Of a DNA stretch of 64,000 nt, positions 25,281-39,573 are shown one piece after another. The DNA comes from Desulfosudis oleivorans Hxd3 (GTDB taxonomy: Bacteria > Desulfobacterota > Desulfobacteria > Desulfobacterales > Desulfosudaceae), in assembly GCF_000018405.1 (NCBI RefSeq), contig NC_009943.1:1057001-1121000 (forward strand), given 5' to 3'. The notes under the pieces are model-generated. The model was not told the origin of the DNA. It made no database searches and saw only the letters and a list, made by a program, of their open reading frames with translations. How positions within the stretch are numbered: the first letter of the stretch is position 1; every line of letters begins with the position of its first letter. Made by a program: the position numbers and the translations under genes.

Positions 25281-26666
25281 TTACAGGCGGCTTCTCAGGG
25301 AGGGCAGAAAGACAAAGCAGAGGATCTCAAAGACCTTTTTTTTGTAGGCGCCGGAGTCCGGGTCAAGGCCCATGATCCGGGCCGGGTAGGCAGGGGCTCC
25401 GGCAAGGGTGTAGCCCATCATGACGATGGTATAAAGCCATCTGCTCACTTCTTCGGCGGGAATGCCGGGCGGCACGCTCTGCTCCACCATCTTCAGCAGG
25501 TTGGAGTGGACCCGGGTCATCAGGGTAAACCCGGACACATGCCGGTGGCTGTCGTAGTGGGCGATGTTGATGACCAGGGTGCCCACCATTTCCCGGTTTT
25601 CAAAACAGTAGGCAAGGCCCTGTTGAAGGTAGTGGATGAACACCTCTTCCGGCGGCAGCCCTTTTACGCCCTGCTGCCAGCTTTCAATGGTCTCGACAAA
25701 CGTTTCAAAGGCGTCCTGGATCACGGCTTCAAAGAGCGCGGCCTTGGTGGGGAAAAAGTGGTGAATGCGGGAAAAATCGAATTTGCCTGCCTGGCCGATC
25801 TGCCGGATGGTGGCGCTGTCGTAAGGCCGGGTGGTAAAGACCCGGCGGGCCGCGTACAGGATTCTTTTTTTCGTGATCTCGCCTCTGGGCAGGGGCGCTT
25901 CCTGCTGTTTTTTGGCCGCTGAAGCGGAGCGCTCCGGCGGGTGAACAGGCGTTCCCGGCCACCGGGCCATATACTCGGCCGGCACCGCGGCCTTGCCTTT
26001 GGACAGCACGTCCAGCACCGGGATAAAAAGCCCGGCCAGGGTGTTTTTCACCCAGTTTTCATAATCTTTGTCATCTACGCCAAGGGTCTTTTGATGAAAG
26101 GCCCGGCCCCCGATAAAATGGACGGCCACCAGCATGAACACAAGCATGAACATGGCGGTCTCCTGTGCCGGTGCCTGCTCCAGAATATGATCGGCCACCA
26201 GGGACAAAACCTTTTCATGCACCCGGGCCATGCGGTCCACGCCCGGAAGCGGTGTGTCCGGGTCGACCATTTCCACGGCGTTTAGCAGCATCACCCGGTA
26301 GGCATCGGGCCGGCGCAGCCCCTGGCGCAGAATGCCTTCCAGGTAAACGGCCTTGCGCTTGTCGGCCCCCATGGTCTGAAGCCGACTGAAAAATTCAGGG
26401 TGGCCCTCCAGGATTTCGTTCTGGATCTCCATGGCCACCTCTTCGAACAGGGCCTCCTTTGATTTAAAATAATGGATCACCAGGGGATGGGGCACGCCCG
26501 CCTTTTCGGCAATGGCCCGAATGCCGGCCGCCTGAAAGGAGGCGGTGGTAAAGACCTGTCGTGCCGCCTTAAGCACCCGCAGGCGGGTGGCAATTCCCTT
26601 GGGGCCGGGTCCTTTTGGGGAGGCCGGTTTTGCGGGTTTTTTTGCAGGTTTTTTTCTGGTCGGCAA
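25281..26666 (-). CDS. tandem (double) TetR-family regulator
   Basis: Protein of 461 aa if it starts at the TTG at 26666; no ATG or ribosome site is visible, so the start is uncertain. It contains two complete TetR units in one chain. Unit 1: RLRVLKAARQVFTTASFQAA, GIRAIAEKAGVPHPLVIHYF, KSKEALF. Unit 2: KKRILYAARRVFTTRPYDSA, TIRQIGQAGKFDFSRIHHFF, PTKAALF. Each is followed by ~150 helical residues that would form a ligand pocket. A single TetR protein is ~200 aa, so this is a fusion that may bind as an internal pseudo-dimer. It diverges from the acyl-CoA operon and probably controls it. Confidence 0.88.
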   Translation of the reverse strand: MPTRKKPAKKPAKPASPKGPGPKGIATRLRVLKAARQVFTTASFQAAGIRAIAEKAGVPHPLVIHYFKSKEALFEEVAMEIQNEILEGHPEFFSRLQTMGADKRKAVYLEGILRQGLRRPDAYRVMLLNAVEMVDPDTPLPGVDRMARVHEKVLSLVADHILEQAPAQETAMFMLVFMLVAVHFIGGRAFHQKTLGVDDKDYENWVKNTLAGLFIPVLDVLSKGKAAVPAEYMARWPGTPVHPPERSASAAKKQQEAPLPRGEITKKRILYAARRVFTTRPYDSATIRQIGQAGKFDFSRIHHFFPTKAALFEAVIQDAFETFVETIESWQQGVKGLPPEEVFIHYLQQGLAYCFENREMVGTLVINIAHYDSHRHVSGFTLMTRVHSNLLKMVEQSVPPGIPAEEVSRWLYTIVMMGYTLAGAPAYPARIMGLDPDSGAYKKKVFEILCFVFLPSLRSRL

Positions 26667-26700: not shown

Positions 26701-26820
26701 TTTTTTACCGGATGTACCGTAGCATGAACAAAAGACCGAGTAAAGAATTTACCGGATGTGGATTTTTTCTTGACATTCCCACCCGCACGGGAGGATAATG
26801 TTTTTTACCGATTGTGGATT
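26701..26820 (+). promoter_or_regulatory. promoter of the acyl-CoA operon with three operator-like repeats
   Basis: TTGACA (26770-26775), an 18-bp spacer and GATAAT (26794-26799) precede the ATG at 26873. Three direct repeats flank it: TTTACCGGATGTACCG (~26704), TTTACCGGATGTGGATTTTT (~26748) and TTTACCGATTGTGGATTTT (~26804). The spacer also contains CCCGCACGGG. Confidence 0.65.
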
Positions 26821-26872: not shown

Positions 26873-28498
26873 ATGTCGTATCCGGACAGAAACAATCCCT
26901 ATACATTTAATCCCTACCTGGAGTGGCGGAAAAAGGTTGATTATTACCAGGCAGACCCCTTCGTCCAGAAGATGATCAGGGTGTTTGCCGGGGACGAGGC
27001 GGAAAAGGTGGATGCCGAGGCCGCAGCCTTTTCCAAAAAGGTCTCCTTTCGCTGGCGGGACCTGGCCGAGAGAATCGCCACGCCGGACAACCGACCCTAC
27101 ATGATGCACTATGACGGCCACAAGAACCGCATCGACCGCATTGTCCGGCCCTATGAAATCGAGGTCATGGAAAAAGAGGTGTTTGCCGAGGCGTGGTTTT
27201 CCCCCAAAACCTCCCTCTGGACCCGGTTTATCAAGCTTTACCTGCTCAGCCAGAACTCCGAAGCCGGCCTGGTCTGCCCGTTGATCTGCACCTGGGGAAT
27301 GGCGGACCTGCTGGAAAAATACGCGGACACGCCCGAGACCCGGCATATTCTTGAGCACACCCGGGACGGCATCAACGGCGAATTTGCCATCGGTGCCCAG
27401 TTTGTCTCCGAAATCCAGGGCGGGTCCGACGTGCCGGCCAACCTGCTGGAGGCGGTCGAAGAAGACGGCCGGTGGCGGCTTTACGGCACCAAGTTCTTCT
27501 GCTCCGCGGCCCATGCCGACTATTCGGTGGTCACGGCCAAGCCCAAAGGCTCGGAAGAAGTGGCCCTGTTTGTTATTCCCATGTGGCTTGACGGCAACAG
27601 GGAAAAGGAGATTCGCAACGGCTTCACCATTGACCGCCTCAAGTGGAAAATGGGCACGGTGGAGCTGCCCACGGCCGAGATCACTTTTAACGGAGCCGCG
27701 GCCTATCCGGTGGGGCCGCTGAACCGGGGCGTGGCCAATGTGGTGGGCATTGTGCTGACCTGCTCCCGCCTGGCCCTTTCCATTGGATCGGCCGGCGGCA
27801 TGGCCCGGGGCCTGCGGGAAGTGGAAAAGTACGGCGAGTTCCGGACCGCTTTTGGTATCGCCTTAAAGGATTTTCCCATGATGGCGGCCCAGTACCTCAC
27901 GAACGCCGGCTGTGTCCGGCGCACCATTGCCGGCAACTTCAAGGTGTATAAAGCCTTTATCGAGCTTCCCGGCGGCCTTTCCGTGGGCCTGGACGGAGGG
28001 GGCCTGTCGGTCAGTTCAAAGGCGGATGAACCGCCGGAGCTTCGAAAACACCGCTTTGACGTCCGGCAATTGATCCTTTTGCAGAAAATCACCGTGGCCA
28101 GGGATGCCATCGATCTTTCCCGACTGGGCATCAGCGCCTTTGGCGGCCACGGCGTGATGGAGGATTTTTCCAGCTTTCCCCGCATGTTCCGTGACGGCAT
28201 GGTCAACGAACTGTGGGAGGGGCCGCGCAACGTGCTTTTGACCCAGCTCTTTATGGACTTTCAGAAGGTCCGTAACTGGTATCCGCCGAACGAGTTTGCG
28301 GGCCGAATCCTGCAAGGGGCGGATGAAACCCTGGTCCGGGGCTTTGCAAAGGAGCTGGAAGAGATCCTGGAAACGCCCCACCTGTTTGACATGGATGAAA
28401 AGACCATTGCCGTTTGCGGCCAGTGGGACGACTTCTGCGAGCGGTTCTTTCACGCCTACCAGGATCTGGCGCTGGCAGAGGTGGAAGCTGCCGGATAA
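26873..28498 (+). CDS. acyl-CoA dehydrogenase, AidB-like
   Basis: Protein of 541 aa with GGAGGTG before ATG 26873. The flavin-binding part shows GAQFVSEIQGGSDVPANLLEA, then WRLYGTKFFCSAAHADYSVV and LKWKMGTVELPTAEITF. The helical domain has TCSRLALSIGSAGGMARGLRE and ISAFGGHGVMEDF, and ELWEGPRNVLL near the end. Length and the EIQGGSDV block fit the AidB branch, which is longer than standard acyl-CoA dehydrogenases. It is the first gene of the regulated operon and probably oxidises a CoA thioester, passing electrons to ETF. Confidence 0.88.
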   Translation: MSYPDRNNPYTFNPYLEWRKKVDYYQADPFVQKMIRVFAGDEAEKVDAEAAAFSKKVSFRWRDLAERIATPDNRPYMMHYDGHKNRIDRIVRPYEIEVMEKEVFAEAWFSPKTSLWTRFIKLYLLSQNSEAGLVCPLICTWGMADLLEKYADTPETRHILEHTRDGINGEFAIGAQFVSEIQGGSDVPANLLEAVEEDGRWRLYGTKFFCSAAHADYSVVTAKPKGSEEVALFVIPMWLDGNREKEIRNGFTIDRLKWKMGTVELPTAEITFNGAAAYPVGPLNRGVANVVGIVLTCSRLALSIGSAGGMARGLREVEKYGEFRTAFGIALKDFPMMAAQYLTNAGCVRRTIAGNFKVYKAFIELPGGLSVGLDGGGLSVSSKADEPPELRKHRFDVRQLILLQKITVARDAIDLSRLGISAFGGHGVMEDFSSFPRMFRDGMVNELWEGPRNVLLTQLFMDFQKVRNWYPPNEFAGRILQGADETLVRGFAKELEEILETPHLFDMDEKTIAVCGQWDDFCERFFHAYQDLALAEVEAAG

Positions 28499-28522
28499 CC
28501 GGGAATAAGAGTGAAAACCAAT

Positions 28523-28557
28523 TCGATACCGATACCGATAGCGATTTCGATTTGGAT
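28523..28557 (+). repeat. hexamer array within the acyl-CoA operon
   Basis: CGATAC repeated, then CGATAG, CGATTT, ending in CGATTTGGATAA, between the AidB-like and HGD-D genes. Same polarity and end as the other arrays. Confidence 0.75.
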
Positions 28558-28644
28558 AAACAACCGGCGATTGGTCCTGCCATGATTAAAACCGGTTTTG
28601 GACAATAATGATCGAAGATAATTAGTTCAGAGGAAACACTTTTT

Positions 28645-29778
28645 ATGGAAACACCGCTGCAAGCCATGGCACGAATGAAAGCCGGCCCCCGGCCGGTGAT
28701 CGGGTGCCTGCCGCTCTATCCGCCGCTGGAGCTGATCCACAGCATGGGCCTGACCCCGGTGGTGCTCTGGGGGCTTTCCGATGCCGTGTCAGGCGTTCCG
28801 GACGCGGACCGGCATCTTCAGAACTATGTCTGTTCCGTGGCCCGCCGTCTGGCCCAGTTTGTGATCCGGGATGGAAAAGACCTGATCGACGGCCTCTTTT
28901 TTTACAACGCCGGGGACACCCTGAGAAACCTTCCGGAGATCCTGCGGGAGGGACGGGCACTGGCCGGGGCTTCGCCTTTGCCCATGTTCCGCATGCATGT
29001 GCCCATGACATCCCCGGCCCAGGCCGACAGCTCCGGCTACCTGAAACAGGAGATCGAAGCGCTCATTTGTTCTCTTGAAAAGCAGTACGGCGTAACCTTT
29101 TCCGAAGATCGGTTTGCCGAAAGCGTTTTTCTGTATCGCCGGATGCGAAGCCTGTGCCTGCAACTGGAACAGGCGGTGGCCGAAGGCCGGATGGGGTTTG
29201 CCGATTTTTGCCGCACCCTGATGGCCGCCAACTTTCTTGAGGTAAGCGAGCAGATCGCGCTGCTGGCATCGACGCTGGACGGGCTCGGGTCGCCGCCCGC
29301 CACGGACGATGAATCTGTTCGGGTGGTGGTCAGCGGGATTCTTCCGTCGCCGTCTGCTTTTTGTGAAATGATGGACCAGGCCGGTTTTGTGGTGGCGGGC
29401 AATGACCTGGCGTTCATGCACCGTTCTTACGCCCATGCGCCTGAAACGTGGGCCGACGCGGCGGACTATTATGTAAAGTTTTACAAGTCCCATTTCCCCT
29501 GCCCCACGCTGCTGTTTTCATCCGACCGAAGAGTGGATGCAATCATCGACAGGGTCCGGCAGGCCGGCGCGAAAGGCTTTGTCTTTGTGGGTGAAAAGTT
29601 CTGCGAGTATGAGTACTTTGATTTTCCGTATCTTGAAAAGCGGCTCAGGGACCAGGGCGTGGCCGTGCTGGCCGTGGAGATATCCATGGACGACAACGTC
29701 GGCATGGAGACCTTCAGGACCCGGCTGGAGGCGTTTAAAGAGGTGATCGACGGGGGAGGGCGCAATGGAGATAAATGA
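28645..29778 (+). CDS. 2-hydroxyacyl-CoA dehydratase D-component family subunit (small)
   Basis: Protein of 377 aa; GAGGAAA before ATG 28645. Features of the HGD-D family (2-hydroxyacyl-CoA dehydratases and class I benzoyl-CoA reductase BcrB/BcrC): GCLPLYPPLELIHSMGLTPV, NYVCSVARRL (a likely cluster-ligand Cys), YDQIDG-like LIDGLFFYNAGDT, and KFCEYEYFDFPYLEKRL with a second conserved Cys. These proteins bind one [4Fe-4S] cluster and use low-potential electrons to remove water or reduce a ring. It overlaps the next subunit by 14 nt. The ATP-driven activator is not in the operon. Confidence 0.82.
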   Translation: METPLQAMARMKAGPRPVIGCLPLYPPLELIHSMGLTPVVLWGLSDAVSGVPDADRHLQNYVCSVARRLAQFVIRDGKDLIDGLFFYNAGDTLRNLPEILREGRALAGASPLPMFRMHVPMTSPAQADSSGYLKQEIEALICSLEKQYGVTFSEDRFAESVFLYRRMRSLCLQLEQAVAEGRMGFADFCRTLMAANFLEVSEQIALLASTLDGLGSPPATDDESVRVVVSGILPSPSAFCEMMDQAGFVVAGNDLAFMHRSYAHAPETWADAADYYVKFYKSHFPCPTLLFSSDRRVDAIIDRVRQAGAKGFVFVGEKFCEYEYFDFPYLEKRLRDQGVAVLAVEISMDDNVGMETFRTRLEAFKEVIDGGGRNGDK

Positions 29779-31024
29779 AAAAACCAGGGCCGGGAAGCAT
29801 CTGACCGAACTGCTGGTAAAAACCTATACAGACATCCACACACGGGCTGCTGCCGGCGCTTTTGTGGTGTGGGGGGCCATCATTGTTCCGGCCGAGATTT
29901 TTGCGGGATTTGACAACGTGGTGTTCTGCGCGCCGGAAAGCCACGCGGCCGTGTGCGCGGCCAAGGGCGTGGGCGCGGCCCAGTGCCTGAAGGCCGAATC
30001 CCTGGGATATTCCATGGACCTCTGTTCTTACGCCCGCATTGACATCGGCTGTTTTTCCGACGGCTGCAAGGAATCCCCCACCATGGGCCTGCCCCGGCCC
30101 CACCTGCTGATTTCAAACACCAACAACTGTTCGCTGCTGGTCAAGTGGTTTGACGTGCACCGGCGCGACATGGACATTCCCCATTTCATCCTGGACGTGC
30201 CGTTCTGCTACGGGCCCCAGCAGGAAAAGGACCGGGACTATATTCTGACCCAGTTCGGCGACCTGATCCAGACAGTGGAGCGGCTCTCCGGCCAGACCTT
30301 TGACCGGGACCGGTTTTACGAGGCGGCGGCGCACACGGCCTCGGCCTCCATGGACTGGAAACGGTTTATGGCCTGCGCCGAACACCGGCCCTCGGGTATT
30401 ACGGTGTTTGATTCCTTTGTGCAGATGGCGCCCTTTCTCATTGCCCGGGGAACCCCGGAACTGGCGGCCCATTATAAGATCCTGGCCGACGAGACCGAGG
30501 CCAACGTGAAAGCCGGCATTTTCCCGGTGCCGGACGAAAAATACCGGCTTCTGTGGGACAACATCGCGCCCTGGCACCAGCTTCGAAAAATGTCCACGCG
30601 GCTGGCCGGCATGGGGGCCAACATCGTGGCCGCCCCCTACACTTCCTGCATCGGGGCCGTTGAGGGAAGCTACGACCTGCTTTCTTTTGACGAAAATGAT
30701 GATCCGTTGTGGTATCTGGCACGGGTTCAGAACCATTCGGTCTGCCCCATGGGTATGGACCTGCGGCTTTCGTCCATGGGCCCGGTGATCGAGAAGCTGG
30801 GCATCGACGGCGTGGTGTTTGCCAGCAACCGCAGCTGCAAGGTGTTTTCCGTCATGCAGATGGATGAGCAGCGCCGCGTCAGGGAACAATACGATATTCC
30901 GTGTGTGATGATCGACGTGGACCACGCGGATGTGCGCAAGTTCAGCCAGGAAAATGTTTATGTGCGGCTGGAGGCCCTGCTGGAGAGTATCGAGGCCAAA
31001 CGGGCCTCGGCGGTGTCTGGTTAA
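29765..31024 (+). CDS. 2-hydroxyacyl-CoA dehydratase D-component family subunit (large)
   Basis: Protein of 419 aa; GGAGGG before ATG 29765, overlapping the partner gene. Conserved blocks: GAIIVPAEIFAGFDNVVFCA, YSMDLCSYARIDIGC, ISNTNNCSLLVKWFDVH, HFILDVPFCYG and a C-terminal FASNRSCKVFSVMQ, matching the family pattern in HgdA/BcrB-type subunits with three potential cluster cysteines. With the 28645 protein it should form a heterodimer carrying two iron-sulfur clusters. Whether it dehydrates a 2-hydroxyacyl-CoA or reduces an aromatic CoA ester cannot be told from sequence. Confidence 0.85.
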   Translation: MEINEKTRAGKHLTELLVKTYTDIHTRAAAGAFVVWGAIIVPAEIFAGFDNVVFCAPESHAAVCAAKGVGAAQCLKAESLGYSMDLCSYARIDIGCFSDGCKESPTMGLPRPHLLISNTNNCSLLVKWFDVHRRDMDIPHFILDVPFCYGPQQEKDRDYILTQFGDLIQTVERLSGQTFDRDRFYEAAAHTASASMDWKRFMACAEHRPSGITVFDSFVQMAPFLIARGTPELAAHYKILADETEANVKAGIFPVPDEKYRLLWDNIAPWHQLRKMSTRLAGMGANIVAAPYTSCIGAVEGSYDLLSFDENDDPLWYLARVQNHSVCPMGMDLRLSSMGPVIEKLGIDGVVFASNRSCKVFSVMQMDEQRRVREQYDIPCVMIDVDHADVRKFSQENVYVRLEALLESIEAKRASAVSG

Positions 31025-31104
31025 GAGTAAGAGGTGCTGAGATTCCCGGCGAATACGGCTAAACTTAAGTGGGGGCCGTTTATGATGGTCTCGTAAAAGT
31101 CGTG

Positions 31105-31229
31105 GATGGCTTCGTAAAAAGTTCAAGGTCAAGGCGTCGCAAATCCCGAGGAATGAGGCGTACTGGTCGTACGCCGCAGTGACGAGGGATGCAGCGCAAC
31201 GCAGAGATTGGGCTTTTTACGAAGCCATC
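31105..31229 (+). repeat. covarying stem-loop element, copy 1
   Basis: 125 bp with perfect 17-bp terminal arms (31105-31121 GATGGCTTCGTAAAAAG; 31213-31229 its complement). Inner stems: GGCGTAC (31157-31163) with GTACGCC (31169-31175), and ATCCC (31143-31147) with GGGAT (31186-31190). It sits between the HGD-D subunit and the thiolase genes, both on the plus strand. Confidence 0.85.
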
Positions 31230-31263
31230 ATTTATAACAACCAAAAAAAATGGAGCGCACTGT

Positions 31264-32445
31264 ATGAGAAAAGTAAACGTGATCGGCGTAGGCATGACCC
31301 CCTTTAGCACGCCCAAGGCTAAAATTCCTTATACGGACATGGCCAAGCAGGCGGCCGGCGATGCTTTAAAGGACGCGGGTGTGGGGTATAACGACATTCA
31401 GCACGCCTATACCGGGTGGGTTTATGCCGACAGCTGCGCCGGCCAGATGGCGCTGTATGATATCGGCATGACCGGCATTCCGGTGTTTAATGTCAACAAC
31501 AACTGCTCCACCGGCTCCAACGCCCTTTTCCTGGCCCGCCAGGCCGTTGCCACCGGCGTGGTGGAGTGCGCCATGGCCCTGGGGTTTGAACAGATGACGC
31601 CCGGCGCTCTGGGCGTGGTGTTCAATGACCGGCCCATTCCCATGCAGACTTTTTTTATCAAGCTGTTTGAGTTCCAGGAGCCCAAGCCCGGTGCACCGCC
31701 GGCGGCCATGCTTTTTGGCGGGGCCGGTGTCGAATATCAGCAGAAATACGGTATATCGGATGAGGTCTTTGGCAAGATATCGGTCAAGGCCAGAAAACAC
31801 GCCCAGCACAATGAACGGGCCGTGTTCCGTGATCTGTTGTCGCTGGACGAGGTCATGTCCTCGCCCCATATCTTCGGTCCCCTGACCCGGTATCAGTGCT
31901 GCCCGCCCACCTGCGGGGCCGCCGCCGCCATCCTGTGCTCCGACGAGTTTGCCAAAAAACACAATATCAGCAACCCGGTCTATATTGCCGGCCAGTCCAT
32001 GAATACCGATTTTACCAGTACATTTGAAGCCAGAAGCGCCATGAACATCTGCGGTTACGAGATGAGCAAGGCGGCGGCCAACGATGTTTACGAGCAGGCC
32101 GGGCTGGGGCCTGAGGACCTGGACGTGGTGGAACTGCACGACTGCTTCACGGCCAATGAGCTGATCACTTATGAAGCCCTGGGCCTGACACCGGAGGGCA
32201 CGGCGGAAAAATTCATCGAAGACGGGGACAACACTTACGGTGGTAAATATGTGACCAACCCGTCGGGCGGGCTGCTGTCCAAGGGCCATCCCCTGGGCGC
32301 AACGGGTCTTGCCCAGTGTGCTGAACTCACCTGGCAGCTTCGGGGCCAGAGCGGGGTCCGCCAGGTGGAGGGCGCCAAGGTGGCGTTGCAGCACAACATC
32401 GGCCTGGGAGGCTGCTGCGTGGTGGGTATGTACCGGCGGGACTAA
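31264..32445 (+). CDS. SCP2-type thiolase / lipid-transfer-like acetyl-CoA acyltransferase
   Basis: Protein of 393 aa; ATG 31264 with GGAG upstream. The frame runs back to 31189 only because it crosses the repeat element. MRKVNVIGVGMTPF, NNNCSTGSNALFLARQ (nucleophilic Cys), VVELHDCFTANELITYEALGL and GGLLSKGHPLGATGLAQ are the motifs of the SCP-x thiolase branch. In anaerobes such enzymes cleave or form 3-oxoacyl-CoA in beta-oxidation-like routes. It fits the final cleavage step of the operon's pathway. Confidence 0.9.
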   Translation: MRKVNVIGVGMTPFSTPKAKIPYTDMAKQAAGDALKDAGVGYNDIQHAYTGWVYADSCAGQMALYDIGMTGIPVFNVNNNCSTGSNALFLARQAVATGVVECAMALGFEQMTPGALGVVFNDRPIPMQTFFIKLFEFQEPKPGAPPAAMLFGGAGVEYQQKYGISDEVFGKISVKARKHAQHNERAVFRDLLSLDEVMSSPHIFGPLTRYQCCPPTCGAAAAILCSDEFAKKHNISNPVYIAGQSMNTDFTSTFEARSAMNICGYEMSKAAANDVYEQAGLGPEDLDVVELHDCFTANELITYEALGLTPEGTAEKFIEDGDNTYGGKYVTNPSGGLLSKGHPLGATGLAQCAELTWQLRGQSGVRQVEGAKVALQHNIGLGGCCVVGMYRRD

Positions 32446-32778
32446 ACCGGACTATAATTATACAACAGGGAATCTCCATTTTTTGTCATCGGGTTCGAAA
32501 TCGCTATCGAAGTCGACGCCGATCCCGATCCCGATAGATTTGGATAAAAAGGGTTTTAATTTTATTTCAAAAGCACGTTTATTTTAAAATGTCATTGCGA
32601 GCCAGAGGCGAATTTTCCTCCCCCGTCATTGCGAGCCAGAGGCGAATTTTCCTCCCCCGTCATTGCGAGCCGAAGGCGAAGCAATCTTAAACTTTCAAGT
32701 GTGAAGGGGATTGCTTCGTCGCGTTGCTTCTCGCAATGACTTTAAACAAAATCAAAACAGATCGGACGGGAGAAAACA
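32446..32778. repeat. intergenic repeats: hexamer array and GTCATTGCGAG repeats
   Basis: No gene seen. A hexamer array (32492-32548) ends in GATTTGGAT. From ~32589 the unit GTCATTGCGAGCCAGAGG, with a GCGAATTTTCCTCCCCC tail, is repeated in tandem twice, then a third degenerate unit leads into GGGGATTGCTTCGTCGCG and ends with CTCGCAATGAC (~32740). The outer ends are complementary, so the whole block can fold back. Confidence 0.8.
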
Positions 32779-33921
32779 ATGAGCAAACGGGTGCTGCGAA
32801 CCAGGCTGTGCGACCTTCTTGGTATTGAATATCCCATTCTCAGTGCGGGTATGGGGCCCACTTTGATCGGCGAGCCCAACGGCGCCCCGGTGGAACTGGT
32901 GGTGGCGGTTTCCGAGGCCGGGGGCCTGGGCGTGCTGGGCGGAGCCGGGTTCAATTTGGAAGAGCTGCAAAGTGCCATTCGGGAGATCAAGTCCCTTACG
33001 GACAAGCCCTTTGGCGTGGACCTGCTGCTGCCCAAGAACCTGCCGGACGGTGCGGGCATGACCGGCGAGGTTCCGCTGGCCCGTATTCTCCAGTCCCTTC
33101 CCGGCCCCTATGTGGAGTGGTATGAGAAGGTCAGGGAGTCCCTGGGCCTGCCGGAGTCGGACCTGACGGTCCGCTCAGACACGGTGACCATGCATGCCGA
33201 CGAGGCCATCAAGATATGCATTGAGGAGCGGGTGCCGCTTTTCTGTGCGGGCCTGGGCGATCCCGGCTTCATGGTCAAGGACGCCCACGCCGTTGGCATG
33301 AAGGTGCTGGGCGTGGTGGGCAACGCGAAAAACGCCGGGCGGGTGGCTGCTTCCGGGGTGGATTTTGTTGTGGCCCAGGGCCATGAAGGCGGGGGCCACA
33401 CCGGCCGGGTGGGCACCATGGCCCTGCTGCCCCAGGCCATCGACGCGGCGGCGCCGGTGCCGGTGATCGCCGCCGGCGGCATCGGCGACGGCCGGGGCCT
33501 GGCTGCCTCCCTGGCCATGGGCTGTATCGGCGTCTGGGTGGGAACCCGGTTTCTTGCGTCCAGAGAGGGCGGGGCCATGGAACTTTGCAAACAGCGCATT
33601 CTGGAGTCCACCGACGAGGGCACCCGTGTCAGCACCCTGTACACGGGAAAGACCTCCCGGGTGAACACCTGCAAGTTTCATGAAATCTGGGACGGGTCCG
33701 GCCTGCCTGCCCTGCCGTTTCCGGTCCAGGTGGTCCTGGCCTCGGCCCTGATCCGGGGCTTTGTCCAGGCGGGAAAAGATGAGTATGTGGCGGGCTTTGC
33801 CGGCCAGATCTCGGGGCTGATCAAAGAGATCAAGCCGGCCCGGGATATCCTCCTGGAGATGGTGGAAGAGGCGGCGGATATTCTTTCCAGAAAACTCAAA
33901 GAGGATGTCGTTGTTCAGTAA
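32779..33921 (+). CDS. nitronate monooxygenase / FabK-like FMN flavoprotein
   Basis: Protein of 380 aa. LCDLLGIEYPILSAGMG at the start, EAGGLGVLGGAG, DFVVAQGHEGGGHTG (the conserved active-site His region), PVIAAGGIGDGRGLAASLAMG (phosphate-binding) and GTRFLASRE define the nitronate monooxygenase/2-nitropropane dioxygenase family, which includes enoyl reductases. In a catabolic CoA operon of an anaerobe a reductase or isomerase role is more likely than nitronate oxidation. Confidence 0.88.
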   Translation: MSKRVLRTRLCDLLGIEYPILSAGMGPTLIGEPNGAPVELVVAVSEAGGLGVLGGAGFNLEELQSAIREIKSLTDKPFGVDLLLPKNLPDGAGMTGEVPLARILQSLPGPYVEWYEKVRESLGLPESDLTVRSDTVTMHADEAIKICIEERVPLFCAGLGDPGFMVKDAHAVGMKVLGVVGNAKNAGRVAASGVDFVVAQGHEGGGHTGRVGTMALLPQAIDAAAPVPVIAAGGIGDGRGLAASLAMGCIGVWVGTRFLASREGGAMELCKQRILESTDEGTRVSTLYTGKTSRVNTCKFHEIWDGSGLPALPFPVQVVLASALIRGFVQAGKDEYVAGFAGQISGLIKEIKPARDILLEMVEEAADILSRKLKEDVVVQ

Positions 33922-33955
33922 CCCCGGATATCCAATGAAATATTAAGGGCAGGGG

Positions 33956-35155
33956 ATGACGGTAATGCTCAACCTCGAGTTTTCAGAATCCATGACCAGG
34001 CTTCAGCAGGGCGTAAAGACGGTGGCCCGGCAGGTCCTGCGGCCCATATCCAGAAAGTATGACCTGCTTGAGCATGTTTATCCCAAAGAGCTTGACGCCT
34101 TTCGGGGAGCCCCGCTTTTTTCCCGGTCAAAGAAGAAACAGGGCAAAGAGCGCCCGCCCGGTGATACAAAAGACCCCATCGGTACCAACCTGGCCCAGAT
34201 CCTTTCCGTGGAGGCCATGAGCTGGGGTGATTGCGGCATGTTGATGTCTTTTCCCAACGCCGGGGTGGGCAATGCCGCCCTGGTTGCCGTGGGCACGGAT
34301 GACCAGGTGGAAAAGTTCGGCCGCCTGTGGATCGCCTTTGCCAACACCGAGCCGGAAGCCGGGTCCGACGCCGGTGCCATCAGTACCACTGCCCAGCTTG
34401 ACGGCGACTCTTGGGTATTAAACGGTGAAAAGATTTTTGTGACCTGCGCCGACCGTTGCGACGCGGTGATTGTGTGGGCCACGCTGGACAAAAGCGCGGG
34501 CAAATCCGGCATCAAGCCTTTTATGGTGGAAAAGCAGACGCCCGGCCTGACCATGACCCGCCTGGAAAACAAGTGCGGGCTTCGGGCCTCGGACACCGGG
34601 ACCTTTGTGCTGAACAACTGCCGTATCCCCAAAGAAAACCTTCTTGGCAGCGCGAAAATCGAGCAGACCACAGAGGGCTTTAAAGGCGTCATGAAAACCT
34701 TTGACATGACGCGGCCCATGGTGGCGGCCATGGCCACCGGGCTGGCCGGCGCGGCACTGGACCTGGTCCGGGAAAAGATGGAACAAAACGGCATCGTCCT
34801 GGATTACCACGGGGGGCCCAATGCCGTCAGCGGGATGCAGAAAGCGTTCTACCGAATGGAGGCCCACCTGGAAGCCATGCGTCAGCTCACTTACAGGTCT
34901 GCCTGGATGGCGGATAACGGCCAGCCCAACAACCTGGAGGCTTCCATGGCCAAAGCCAAGGCCGGCCGTTGGGCCACGCTCATCGCCCAGGAGAGTTGCG
35001 AGCTATTGGGTCCCCTGGGAATTTCCACGCAGGAGCTGGCGGAAAAATGGATGCGCGACGTCAAGATCATGGATATTTTTGAAGGCACGGGCCAGATTCA
35101 GCACCTGATTATCGCCCGCCATATTCTGGGCCTGTCCAGCCGCGAGCTGAAGTAG
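33956..35155 (+). CDS. acyl-CoA dehydrogenase
   Basis: Protein of 399 aa. ATG 33956 touches the AGGGG ribosome site; the in-frame ATG at 33965 (396 aa) has better spacing and may be the true start. IAFANTEPEAGSDAGAIST, WVLNGEKIFVTCADRCDAVIV, MTRLENKCGLRASDTGTFVLNNCRIP and GLAGAALDLVREKM are classical; ELLGPLGISTQELAEKWMRDVKIMDIFEGTGQIQHLIIARHIL is the C-terminal FAD/base region (Glu in FEGT). Last gene of the operon, supplying an oxidation step. Confidence 0.93.
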   Translation: MTVMLNLEFSESMTRLQQGVKTVARQVLRPISRKYDLLEHVYPKELDAFRGAPLFSRSKKKQGKERPPGDTKDPIGTNLAQILSVEAMSWGDCGMLMSFPNAGVGNAALVAVGTDDQVEKFGRLWIAFANTEPEAGSDAGAISTTAQLDGDSWVLNGEKIFVTCADRCDAVIVWATLDKSAGKSGIKPFMVEKQTPGLTMTRLENKCGLRASDTGTFVLNNCRIPKENLLGSAKIEQTTEGFKGVMKTFDMTRPMVAAMATGLAGAALDLVREKMEQNGIVLDYHGGPNAVSGMQKAFYRMEAHLEAMRQLTYRSAWMADNGQPNNLEASMAKAKAGRWATLIAQESCELLGPLGISTQELAEKWMRDVKIMDIFEGTGQIQHLIIARHILGLSSRELK

Positions 35156-36680: not shown

Positions 36681-37289
36681 ATGAAAATTATTGAGACAGA
36701 ACTGATTATAAACGCGGGGGGATTCCCTCAATCTAAGGAGTGGCAAAATATTCACAGGGACATTCTGAATGCAATCCACTCAATCGAATGGCCTCCAGGG
36801 TCAGGCTCATTTACTCTCTATGATGAGTCCGGGAAAAAAAGAGGGCAGGGTAATGGCGTAAAGCCTATAAAGGAAGCTTGCATGAAAAAGCTTCAGTCTT
36901 CAGGATGGAGACTGGAAACACCGGTTGATGTTGCAACAGTTCGAAGACCAGGTCCCATGGATGCCACCATTGAAGTTAACGGACGTCTTTTTTGTGTGGA
37001 ATGGGAAACGGGGAATATTTCTTCCAGTCATCGCGCTGTTAATAAAATGGCTTTGGGTATTCTTAAGGACATACTGATTGGTGGTGTTTTAATATTACCG
37101 ACCCGGAAGATGTACAATTACTTGACCGATCGTATAGGGAACTTCCTTGAATTGTCACCCTATTTCCCTCTATGGAAATCATTGCAAGTTGATGAGGGGC
37201 TGCTTGCCATTATAGCCATTGAGCATGATGGGGTCAGCAAGGATGTTGAAAGAATTCCAAAAGGTACTGATGGCCGAGCCATTATTTAA
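36681..37289 (+). CDS. type II restriction endonuclease, BamHI/BglII-like
   Basis: Protein of 202 aa. Catalytic PD-(D/E)XK variant residues Asp94 (GPMDATIEV), Glu107 and Glu109 (VEWET) reproduce the D...ExE pattern of BamHI (there Asp94, Glu111, Glu113), and Glu65 (IKEACMKK) may match the fourth acidic residue. Opening segment IINAGGFPQSKEWQNI. No ribosome site is obvious, which may keep expression low. AT-rich codons indicate transfer. The gene converges with the methyltransferase and overlaps its end by 4 nt. The cut site is not predictable by eye. Confidence 0.82.
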   Translation: MKIIETELIINAGGFPQSKEWQNIHRDILNAIHSIEWPPGSGSFTLYDESGKKRGQGNGVKPIKEACMKKLQSSGWRLETPVDVATVRRPGPMDATIEVNGRLFCVEWETGNISSSHRAVNKMALGILKDILIGGVLILPTRKMYNYLTDRIGNFLELSPYFPLWKSLQVDEGLLAIIAIEHDGVSKDVERIPKGTDGRAII

Positions 37290-38671
37290 CTCCGTTGTAG
37301 TATCGCAATATATTCGAGCCGCATAGTATTTGAAATTCCTATAATAGGGCGGCTCATCATTTTGATAAGTCGGAAACCATATTTTTTGCCTATCTGTACC
37401 AGTATTTCATGTATTCCTTGGACTTTGTTCGGGTCCACCCCCAATGCTTTTCCGAGTTGATTGTTGTTGGTCCCAACAATAATGGTGCATAGTCTTGCCG
37501 GACGTAAAACTCGGGAACATTCTGAAAGGACTTGTTCCATATCTTCTCGGTAGAGTTCAAATTTTTCTGAAAGTTTTTTCCCCCTCAAACCAATCATCGA
37601 ATTCCTGAGGTTGTCCATTTCTACGCCTAGGTAGTTGAGATGAAAGGCGTCATTTCCCAGATAATCAATGGCAAAGCTATAAGGGGGTGAAAAAATGATA
37701 CCATCGACAGTTTTGTTATCAAGTGGTAGGTCTCTTGCATCTCCCTCCATTGCCGTTGTTGCCGACAGCTCCAACCCCGTGTCGATTAAGCCCTTCTGAA
37801 TTTTTTCGACAACAAATAGGTATCTTTCCAATATCGCTTTGAACTGTTCAATGGGAGACCTTCGGCTACTTCTTTCAGAATACCCCACACTGTCTAAGTA
37901 GGCCAATAAGAGGAAATTGTATGTGTCTGAAGTCTCTTTTTGCTGTTTTGTGAGACGACTACGATCTTCCTTGATCACATATTCTGCGACAGGCTCCATG
38001 ACAGACATCACATTTTTTTGTGATTTTCTTTTACAGGCTCTGATTCCTGCCACAGGTTTTCCTACACGTTCCGAAAAATAATTAAACACTTCTTTGTAAT
38101 TATTCAGAGTTTTCTGGGCTCGACTCAAAGGGACTGTTAGAGCATCTATTTTTGTTTGAGCCATAAACCTGCAAAAAGGGCTTGCATCAATGCCGATTGA
38201 ATTTATCCCCATCAAAGAGGCCTCAACCAAGACCGTGCCTGAACCCATCATAGGGTCCAAGACCGTATCTCCAGGTTTCAGTCCCATAATATTTATTAAC
38301 CCCTTTATCATCTGGGGATGAAATTTTCCGCGATAAGGAAAAAGACCATGGGTGCTGTAGCCGGTTCTGAAGAGATTCCTCTCGAAAAAGGATTTGAGCC
38401 TAGATGAAGAATGATCAGCTAACTTCAGTGAATCGCCGGTGCATATGAGAAAGTGTCGTGTGAAATTGTTACACACACGCGCAAAATAGGCGCTGTTTCT
38501 AAGAAGCTCTTCGTCAGACAACACCTGTTGTTCGTAGAAGGCAAGTTCTAATTCGTAGAGGTCATTTAAGTTAGGTATGAGTTGATATTTGGTAGAGAAT
38601 AGTTTTCCAAAGAAGTCTTGTGCAAGTACGTCGGGGATTTTATGCGGATCCAAGTTTTCTCCTGAGCTCAA
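37286..38671 (-). CDS. DNA methyltransferase with SPPY motif (likely N4-cytosine)
   Basis: Protein of 461 aa starting at a TTG (38671) that overlaps the upstream methylase stop (TTGA). Motif I is DPMMGSGT (139-146) and motif IV SPPY (328-331), the order of alpha-type methylases with a long recognition domain between. SPPY is more common in N4-cytosine enzymes. EGDARDLP precedes motif IV, and LRPARLCTIIVG follows. It is part of the R-M island. Confidence 0.85.
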   Translation of the reverse strand: MSSGENLDPHKIPDVLAQDFFGKLFSTKYQLIPNLNDLYELELAFYEQQVLSDEELLRNSAYFARVCNNFTRHFLICTGDSLKLADHSSSRLKSFFERNLFRTGYSTHGLFPYRGKFHPQMIKGLINIMGLKPGDTVLDPMMGSGTVLVEASLMGINSIGIDASPFCRFMAQTKIDALTVPLSRAQKTLNNYKEVFNYFSERVGKPVAGIRACKRKSQKNVMSVMEPVAEYVIKEDRSRLTKQQKETSDTYNFLLLAYLDSVGYSERSSRRSPIEQFKAILERYLFVVEKIQKGLIDTGLELSATTAMEGDARDLPLDNKTVDGIIFSPPYSFAIDYLGNDAFHLNYLGVEMDNLRNSMIGLRGKKLSEKFELYREDMEQVLSECSRVLRPARLCTIIVGTNNNQLGKALGVDPNKVQGIHEILVQIGKKYGFRLIKMMSRPIIGISNTMRLEYIAILQRS

Positions 38672-39573
38672 ATCTCCACATAGTCACCGGATTTGTGGGG
38701 ACTGAGATCTTCGGTCTGTAAACGCTCAATAATAACGTCACAGCTCTCAATTTCTATCCCGATCCAGTGTCGTTGCAGCCTTTCGCAGACGTCATAGGTG
38801 GTGCCGCTGCCCCCAAAGGGATCAAGGACTATATCATATTCTTGAGTGGACAACTGGATGACTCGTTCAAGTAGTTTGGTGGACAGTTGATTGGCAGACC
38901 TCCTCCGGCTTTTAAATTTCCAATGCCTTACAGGTGTGATGTCATGCCAAACATCAGTAAGGTTTACCCCGTTGGGGTTCATTGCTCTTCGGTGTCCACC
39001 GTAATCTTTAATTTCCTTCCCGCAATGTCGGCAAACCTCTATGGGTGTCCGTACCCTTCTAAATGTTTTTGGCTTCCCTTTTGTATAATATAACATACTG
39101 TAATGAGAAGGGTATAGGCGTCCAGGGATAGGGAGAGATAGCTTGATGTCGACGGCTATCCAATGTCGGAAGGTCATGCCAGCTTCACTTAGGTGATTAC
39201 CTAGAATGATGTTCCATTTTGGGAGGTTATAGATAAAAATAGCTCCGCCCGGTTTCAGCACACGGATACATTGGTCCAGCCACGTCTTGCACCATGAGAG
39301 ATATTCTTTTTCTGTAAGATTGTCATTGACGTTATTGCCGTAAATTTTAGACAGGTTAAAGGGGGGATCTGCAAAGATTGTATCAACCGATTCACTGTGT
39401 ACATAGGGAATTACCTTGATTATATCGTCATTATAGAGAGCCCCCAATTGGCTTGAATATACAATTTTCTTTTCAATGCTGGAGTCCACAACATGCTCCG
39501 GCGTCCATACTGTTTGATTTTTAAGGGTTTGTAGAGCCATTTGATATCCATAAGAAGATGCTTTTATTGCCAT
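38668..39573 (-). CDS. DNA methyltransferase with DPPF motif, beta class
   Basis: Protein of 301 aa. DPPF (69-72, FADPPFNLSKIYG) comes first and DPFGGSGTT (from 251) last, the beta-class order. A CRHCG with a later GGH segment may form a zinc site in the recognition region. DPPF favours N6-adenine, though beta enzymes can also methylate cytosine. Coupled by overlap to the SPPY methylase; two enzymes of different class beside one nuclease is unusual. Confidence 0.88.
   Translation of the reverse strand: MAIKASSYGYQMALQTLKNQTVWTPEHVVDSSIEKKIVYSSQLGALYNDDIIKVIPYVHSESVDTIFADPPFNLSKIYGNNVNDNLTEKEYLSWCKTWLDQCIRVLKPGGAIFIYNLPKWNIILGNHLSEAGMTFRHWIAVDIKLSLPIPGRLYPSHYSMLYYTKGKPKTFRRVRTPIEVCRHCGKEIKDYGGHRRAMNPNGVNLTDVWHDITPVRHWKFKSRRRSANQLSTKLLERVIQLSTQEYDIVLDPFGGSGTTYDVCERLQRHWIGIEIESCDVIIERLQTEDLSPHKSGDYVEI

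Follow-up and report, generated by a model that had tools for sequence, protein, structure and literature searches.

What kind of reaction is catalyzed by a two-subunit HGD-D enzyme that is encoded among genes of acyl-CoA metabolism, with no activase gene beside it, and how might such an enzyme be activated? These questions are raised by positions 26873-35155 of the 64,000-nucleotide stretch of DNA analysed here (the window; positions 1,057,001 to 1,121,000 of the forward strand of contig NC_009943.1), which belongs to the genome of the sulfate-reducing bacterium Desulfosudis oleivorans Hxd3, a single contig of 3,944,167 bp. The potentials at which radical enzymes of the BCR/HAD type work are among the lowest known from living systems, and only a small number of branches of this family has been characterized. 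The HGD-D pair of the window is referred to below as pair E and its relatives as E-type. In the open-access literature searched, neither a function for E-type proteins nor a paper on the Hxd3 E operon was found.

Gene Content and Extent of the Operon

The six genes that an earlier note had read from the DNA are present in the order given, all on the forward strand, and their family names agree with Pfam, NCBIfam and PDB matches. The first (26873..28498, 541 aa) encodes an AidB-like acyl-CoA dehydrogenase (ACAD) that matches Pfam AidB_N with 24.9 bits (cut-off 22.9), has 6sd8 as its top PDB match and shows dN/dS values of ~0.06-0.13 between lineages. It is followed by the two HGD-D genes, encoding the HadC-like beta subunit subC (28645..29778, 377 aa, PF06050 with 200 bits) and the HadB-like alpha subunit subB (29765..31024, 419 aa, PF06050 with 209 bits). 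The SCP2-type thiolase gene (31189..32445), whose real start is probably at 31264, matches NCBIfam PRK08256 with 660 bits (cut-off 436) and SCP2-thiolase type-1 (6hsj) with 445 bits; the protein retains the NNNCSTGS, HDCF and GHPLGATG motifs. Further downstream lie genes for an NMO/FabK-like FMN flavoprotein (32779..33921; PF03060 with 210 bits, FabK model at 229/453 bits), the nearest PDB entries of which are of FabK and NMO types, and for a short-chain-type ACAD (33956..35155; Pfam, NCBIfam and PDB matches), the operon membership of both being uncertain.

The proposal that all six genes form one operon holds for the first part of the row only. The order TetR, AidB, subC, subB, SCP2-type thiolase is syntenic in the sister genome G050, where an enoyl-CoA hydratase gene follows, whereas NMO orthologs (70-74%) are unlinked to the pair in five relatives (G050, G001, G085, G138, and G172), which rules out the six-gene row as a conserved block. 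As, in addition, a 333-bp gap precedes the NMO gene in Hxd3, the operon core is taken to consist of AidB, subC, subB and thiolase, and the NMO and last ACAD genes may form a separate second unit. At other E-type loci, the SCP2-type thiolase gene is again found 3′ of the pair in L084 and L089, and in G023, G001, and G138 it lies apart from the pair; TetR and AidB-like genes lie beside the pair in L049 and L050, and an AidB gene also in L069.

Relatives and Architecture of the E-Type Pair

E-type pairs were found at 69 loci of bacteria and archaea, with sulfate reducers and Syntrophaceae at one end of the range and Asgard archaea at the other, and the two subunit genes adjoin in the order subC-subB throughout the relatives in which both were found. 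HadBC, the (R)-2-hydroxyisocaproyl-CoA dehydratase (3o3m), is the nearest characterized enzyme by several measures. The E-type subB profile scores 236 bits with HadB, 151 with MbdO and 140 with BzdO, and the subC profile 189 bits with HadC, 98 with MbdN and 89 with BzdN. AlphaFold2 models of subB and subC (mean pLDDT 91 and 90) have 3o3m as top match, with TM values of 0.87/0.91 for subB against HadB. The cluster ligands C87, C122, and C358 and the catalytic Glu58 of the alpha subunit are invariant, and the beta subunits of the subfamily share the HadC cysteine pattern. Pair E differs from HadBC in its low identity (31% to HadB, 23% to HadC), in two additional invariant cysteines of the alpha subunit, in the lack of an adjoining activase and, in Hxd3 itself, in the loss of one HadC-type cysteine from the beta subunit.

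According to the earlier note, its reading would be refuted by close grouping with a characterized dehydratase together with the standard gene set of that enzyme at another locus, and about half of this was found. Maximum likelihood trees join the E-type with HadB (UFBoot 100), although HAD is represented there by one long-branched reference only, but subB and subC stay far below the HadB and HadC equivalog cut-offs (216/750 and 112/700 bits), and in the AU test the alternative groupings HadB+G (p 0.28) and MbdO+E (p 0.20) are not significantly worse. A sister relationship of the E-type to HadB is favoured by the sequence trees, and the E-type constitutes an uncharacterized subfamily of the BCR/HAD radical enzyme family that is built like the HadBC heterodimer.

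Probable Activation in Trans

The Hxd3 genome contains six BcrAD-type activase ATPases and ten HGD-D genes, the latter forming five pairs, A-E; a passage in an earlier study likewise gives 10 COG1775 candidates for Desulfococcus oleovorans Hxd3 (PMC4103992). Two ATPases adjoin pair A (1043 kb), two pair B (3341 kb) and one pair C (3346 kb), and none adjoins pair D (2015 kb) or pair E (28645-31024 of the window). The absence of an activase therefore applies to the six-gene set at 26873-35155 and not to the organism, for which the six ATPases rule it out. Of the two solutions offered in the earlier note, another electron source is not needed, and an outside activase shared from another locus is the one that the data support.

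The sixth ATPase stands alone at genome positions 3787740-3788498 (locus L018:8696-9523), near genes that by eye are dapF-like and leuCD-like. It matches the acyl-CoA dehydratase activase model with 231 bits (cut-off 125) and is nearest to HadI in the PDB (213 bits); it differs from HadI and HgdC, activators of 2-hydroxyacyl-CoA dehydratases, by its solitary position and by falling inside a clade of activators of F-type HGD-D pairs (UFBoot 100). Its orthologs (67-71%) adjoin an F-type pair in G023, G050, G085, G138, and G055. As Hxd3 lacks an F-type pair, the activator was kept after the loss of its partner, which is consistent with service of the remaining ATPase to pair E, pair D or both.

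Activation in trans is the rule for the E-type: of 48 loci flanked by no less than 2 kb on either side, five have an activase within 2 kb and the other 43 (~90%) have none. The five E-adjacent activases spread over more than one ATPase clade, so the activators look exchangeable, and an activase-domain protein was detected in 22 of the 22 E-bearing genomes searched, G044 having only very long activase-domain-fused proteins. Because a dehydratase-type enzyme recycles the injected electron, its activator need not be co-transcribed. With an activator working in trans, an enzyme should not be taken for broken or activase-free because no activase gene lies next to it.

We also would like to point out three loci at which activases and pairs are arranged differently. 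At L134 (G055:C60), an E-type and an F-type pair are separated by a few kb and accompanied by one activase, an HpaB-family gene coming next; sharing of an activator would be natural here. Pair D (2015084-2017401, L017), whose alpha subunit carries a BzdO-type His (CDTHWKW), may share the solitary activase. Pair A (1043300-1047346, L015), ~10 kb before the window, has an enoyl-CoA-hydratase-like gene further downstream of the pair and its two adjoining activases.

Proposed Function

The set acts on acyl-CoA thioesters together with a thiolase, as the earlier note had rightly suggested. We consider it on balance probable that the HadBC-like pair performs ketyl-radical hydration or dehydration of an aliphatic, perhaps branched, acyl-CoA once the solitary HadI-like ATPase has activated it in trans. 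In the proposed mechanism, this ATPase, the most likely activator, would inject an electron into pair E by ATP hydrolysis; ketyl-radical chemistry would then take place at C2/C3 of an aliphatic acyl-CoA, most likely converting a 2-hydroxyacyl-CoA to a 2-enoyl-CoA or the reverse, and the product would feed the AidB-like dehydrogenase and the SCP2-type thiolase. In animals, SCP2-thiolase type-1 handles 2-methyl-branched 3-oxoacyl-CoAs, and the presence of an SCP2-type thiolase suggests a methyl-branched substrate here. Weighing against the dehydratase reading, no gene for a 2-hydroxy acid enzyme was found in the Hxd3 E operon. Anaerobic alpha-oxidation of 3-methyl-branched acids by a dehydratase working in reverse was also considered, and is speculation only: the operon has no supporting lyase and no paper on it was found.

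Recurrent neighbours of E-type pairs are genes for enoyl-CoA hydratase, ACAD, AMP/CoA ligase, HpaB-family protein and CoA-transferase. The row at L120 (CoA-transferase, subC, subB, NMO, activase) resembles the gene order of a had operon. At five loci of deltaproteobacterial and Syntrophaceae MAGs (L088, L090, L101, L128, and L131), a cysteine-desulfurase-family gene follows the E pair, mostly with a TusA/YedF-like gene next; one such desulfurase was scanned, and it matched TIGR01977 and, partially, selenocysteine lyase. Passages in three studies report that sulfate reducers growing on acetone induce two HGD-D genes along with thiolase and enoyl-CoA hydratase proteins, and leave the role of these genes unassigned (PMC8084838, PMC7888143, PMC4103992). 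Identity of the E pathway with that of acetone was considered as well. The Hxd3 pair is similar in that it also comprises two HGD-D genes with a thiolase; it differs in that none of these ketone-degrading species is among the 69 E-type loci.

Additional Invariant Cysteines of the Alpha Subunit

Two cysteines of subB, C295 and C327, are invariant in 32 of 32 E-type sequences, and C148 is present in 31. Both C295 and C327 are absent from HadB, MbdO and the D, F, and G types; BzdO lacks the cysteine at the C295 position, the sequence compared being a partial one that leaves the C327 region uncovered. HMMER and hhalign place C295 and C327 on DCCP cysteines, and hhalign also places them on BzdN Cys263 and Cys293, two residues given as [8Fe-9S] ligands in a study of BzdNO (PMC11971306). 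In this way subB fills five of the six double-cubane ligand positions; the equivalent of BzdN Cys36 is not a cysteine, and C148 could substitute for it. The score with the DCCP double_cubane model (56-58/350 bits) is under the cut-off, and the six-cysteine double-cubane site of a BzdN-like subunit is not present in subC, which lacks the equivalents of BzdN Cys36 and Cys263. The E-type further differs from BzdN and DCCP in that the additional cysteines sit in a HadB-like subunit from which a His131 equivalent is also absent. Judged from this conservation, C295 and C327 may hold a metal cluster different from that of a plain dehydratase. In BzdO, the benzoyl head sits between the domains in much the way that the double cubane sits in BzdN (PMC11971306), and given this resemblance of the two sites, a second sub-cluster in subB could fill and block the acyl site, which would speak against the dehydratase reading.

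Alternative Explanations

These cysteines provide the basis for an alternative in which the E-type is no dehydratase: its alpha subunit would carry an extra cluster, either double-cubane-like ([8Fe-9S]), as found in DCCP and BzdN, or of another kind, and the enzyme would transfer electrons or serve as a reductase, its substrate being an acyl-CoA or a small molecule. Their invariance and the five aligned ligands argue for such an enzyme, which nevertheless is rather unlikely in our judgement, given the missing sixth cysteine and an overall subB fold and profile closest to HadB. Just as tentative, and equally unlikely, is a combination of both readings in a new class of the BCR/HAD radical family, widespread among anaerobic bacteria and Asgard archaea: a HadB-like catalytic subunit with an enlarged double-cubane-like cluster would be served in trans by exchangeable activators and act on aliphatic acyl-CoAs at low potential. 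The two invariant cysteines make the cluster prediction testable in one purification. A dearomatizing enzyme of the class I benzoyl-CoA reductase (BCR) kind, acting on an aromatic or cyclic CoA thioester as the earlier note had allowed, belongs to the same superfamily, and the AU value for MbdO+E given above, together with a glycyl radical enzyme and a CoA ligase encoded beside one E pair (L071), could be taken to point to it. We regard it as very improbable, however, as both subunits are closest to HadBC and not to BzdNO or MbdNO, and as the BcrB, BcrC, BzdO and BzdN models score 145/487, 70/421, 94/449, and 51/454 bits, far under their cut-offs. Moreover, the equivalent of BzdO His131, a residue next to the active cluster (PMC11971306), is Leu125 in the E-type (MbdO being also without this His), no ATPase pair is co-located, and a published table does not record use of aromatics for Hxd3 (PMC5109826).

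With a HadBC-like dehydratase as the preferred reading, the identity of its activator and the state of the Hxd3 copy have to be weighed. Instead of the solitary ATPase, one of those beside pairs A, B or C, or several of them interchangeably, might serve pair E; this would agree with the mixed clades of the E-adjacent activators and with the 48-49% identity of atp3344 to the E-linked activators of L092 and L120. The solitary ATPase is, however, equally or more similar to the activators of L092, L136, and L102 (48-50%), and it would otherwise be left with no partner but pair D, whereas its competitors are co-located with pairs of their own, so that we give them a minor chance. Decay or inactivity of the Hxd3 pair is suggested by codon 90 of subC (28912..28914, forward strand), which reads GGG (Gly), whereas the relatives compared all carry a Cys there, within the motif NACDTLRN. 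The change is unique among ~67 relatives, in which the HadC-type cysteines of the beta subunit are complete, and without one of its three presumed cluster cysteines the Hxd3 copy may be altered or inactive. The codon is TGC in the three syntenic relatives that are closest, two bases away from GGG, which renders a single base-call error less likely. Yet both subunits are otherwise well conserved and do not have the look of general decay: near-universal columns deviate at 3 of 66 positions in subC and 0 of 140 in subB, dN/dS at usable dS is ~0.17-0.18 (subC) and ~0.12-0.15 (subB), the reading frames are intact, and promoter and operators are kept. A decaying pair is accordingly held to be distinctly improbable.

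A Putative Private Double Operator

A gene for a TetR regulator with two fused HTH domains (25281..26666, reverse strand, 461 aa; PF00440 in two matched stretches) is divergent from the operon, and the two halves of the protein align at 25% identity (E 7e-21). Between it and the AidB-like gene, a consensus scan located a strong sigma-70-like promoter on the forward strand (TTGACA-18-GATAAT, 26770..26799) that agrees with the consensus at 11 of 12 positions. It lies between two putative operator sites, found by pattern search on the same strand: site 1, TTTACCGGATGTGGATT (26748..26764), upstream of the -35 element, and site 2, TTTACCGATTGTGGATT (26804..26820), just past the -10 element. Both are copies of TTTACCGNNTGTGGATT. 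With at most one mismatch, this pattern has exactly two matches in the whole Hxd3 genome, both at the TetR-operon promoter, and two in G050; G023 has three, two of them exact and one a single-mismatch site elsewhere. A backward control of the pattern gave 0 matches. The double site occurs at the same promoter in Hxd3, G050, and G023 with a spacing of 54-56 bp and, by these pattern matches, is exclusive to it in the three genomes compared. The operator is not palindromic, as would suit a covalently fused TetR whose two DNA-binding heads differ from each other, and the regulator most likely represses the operon via this private double operator. The tandem TetR is likely to be a regulator with a single target.

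Just downstream of the gene set, positions 36681-39573 of the window are low in GC (~0.44) and contain, by eye, two adjoining DNA-methyltransferase-like ORFs and a small restriction-endonuclease-like ORF, which makes this segment a probable restriction-modification island.
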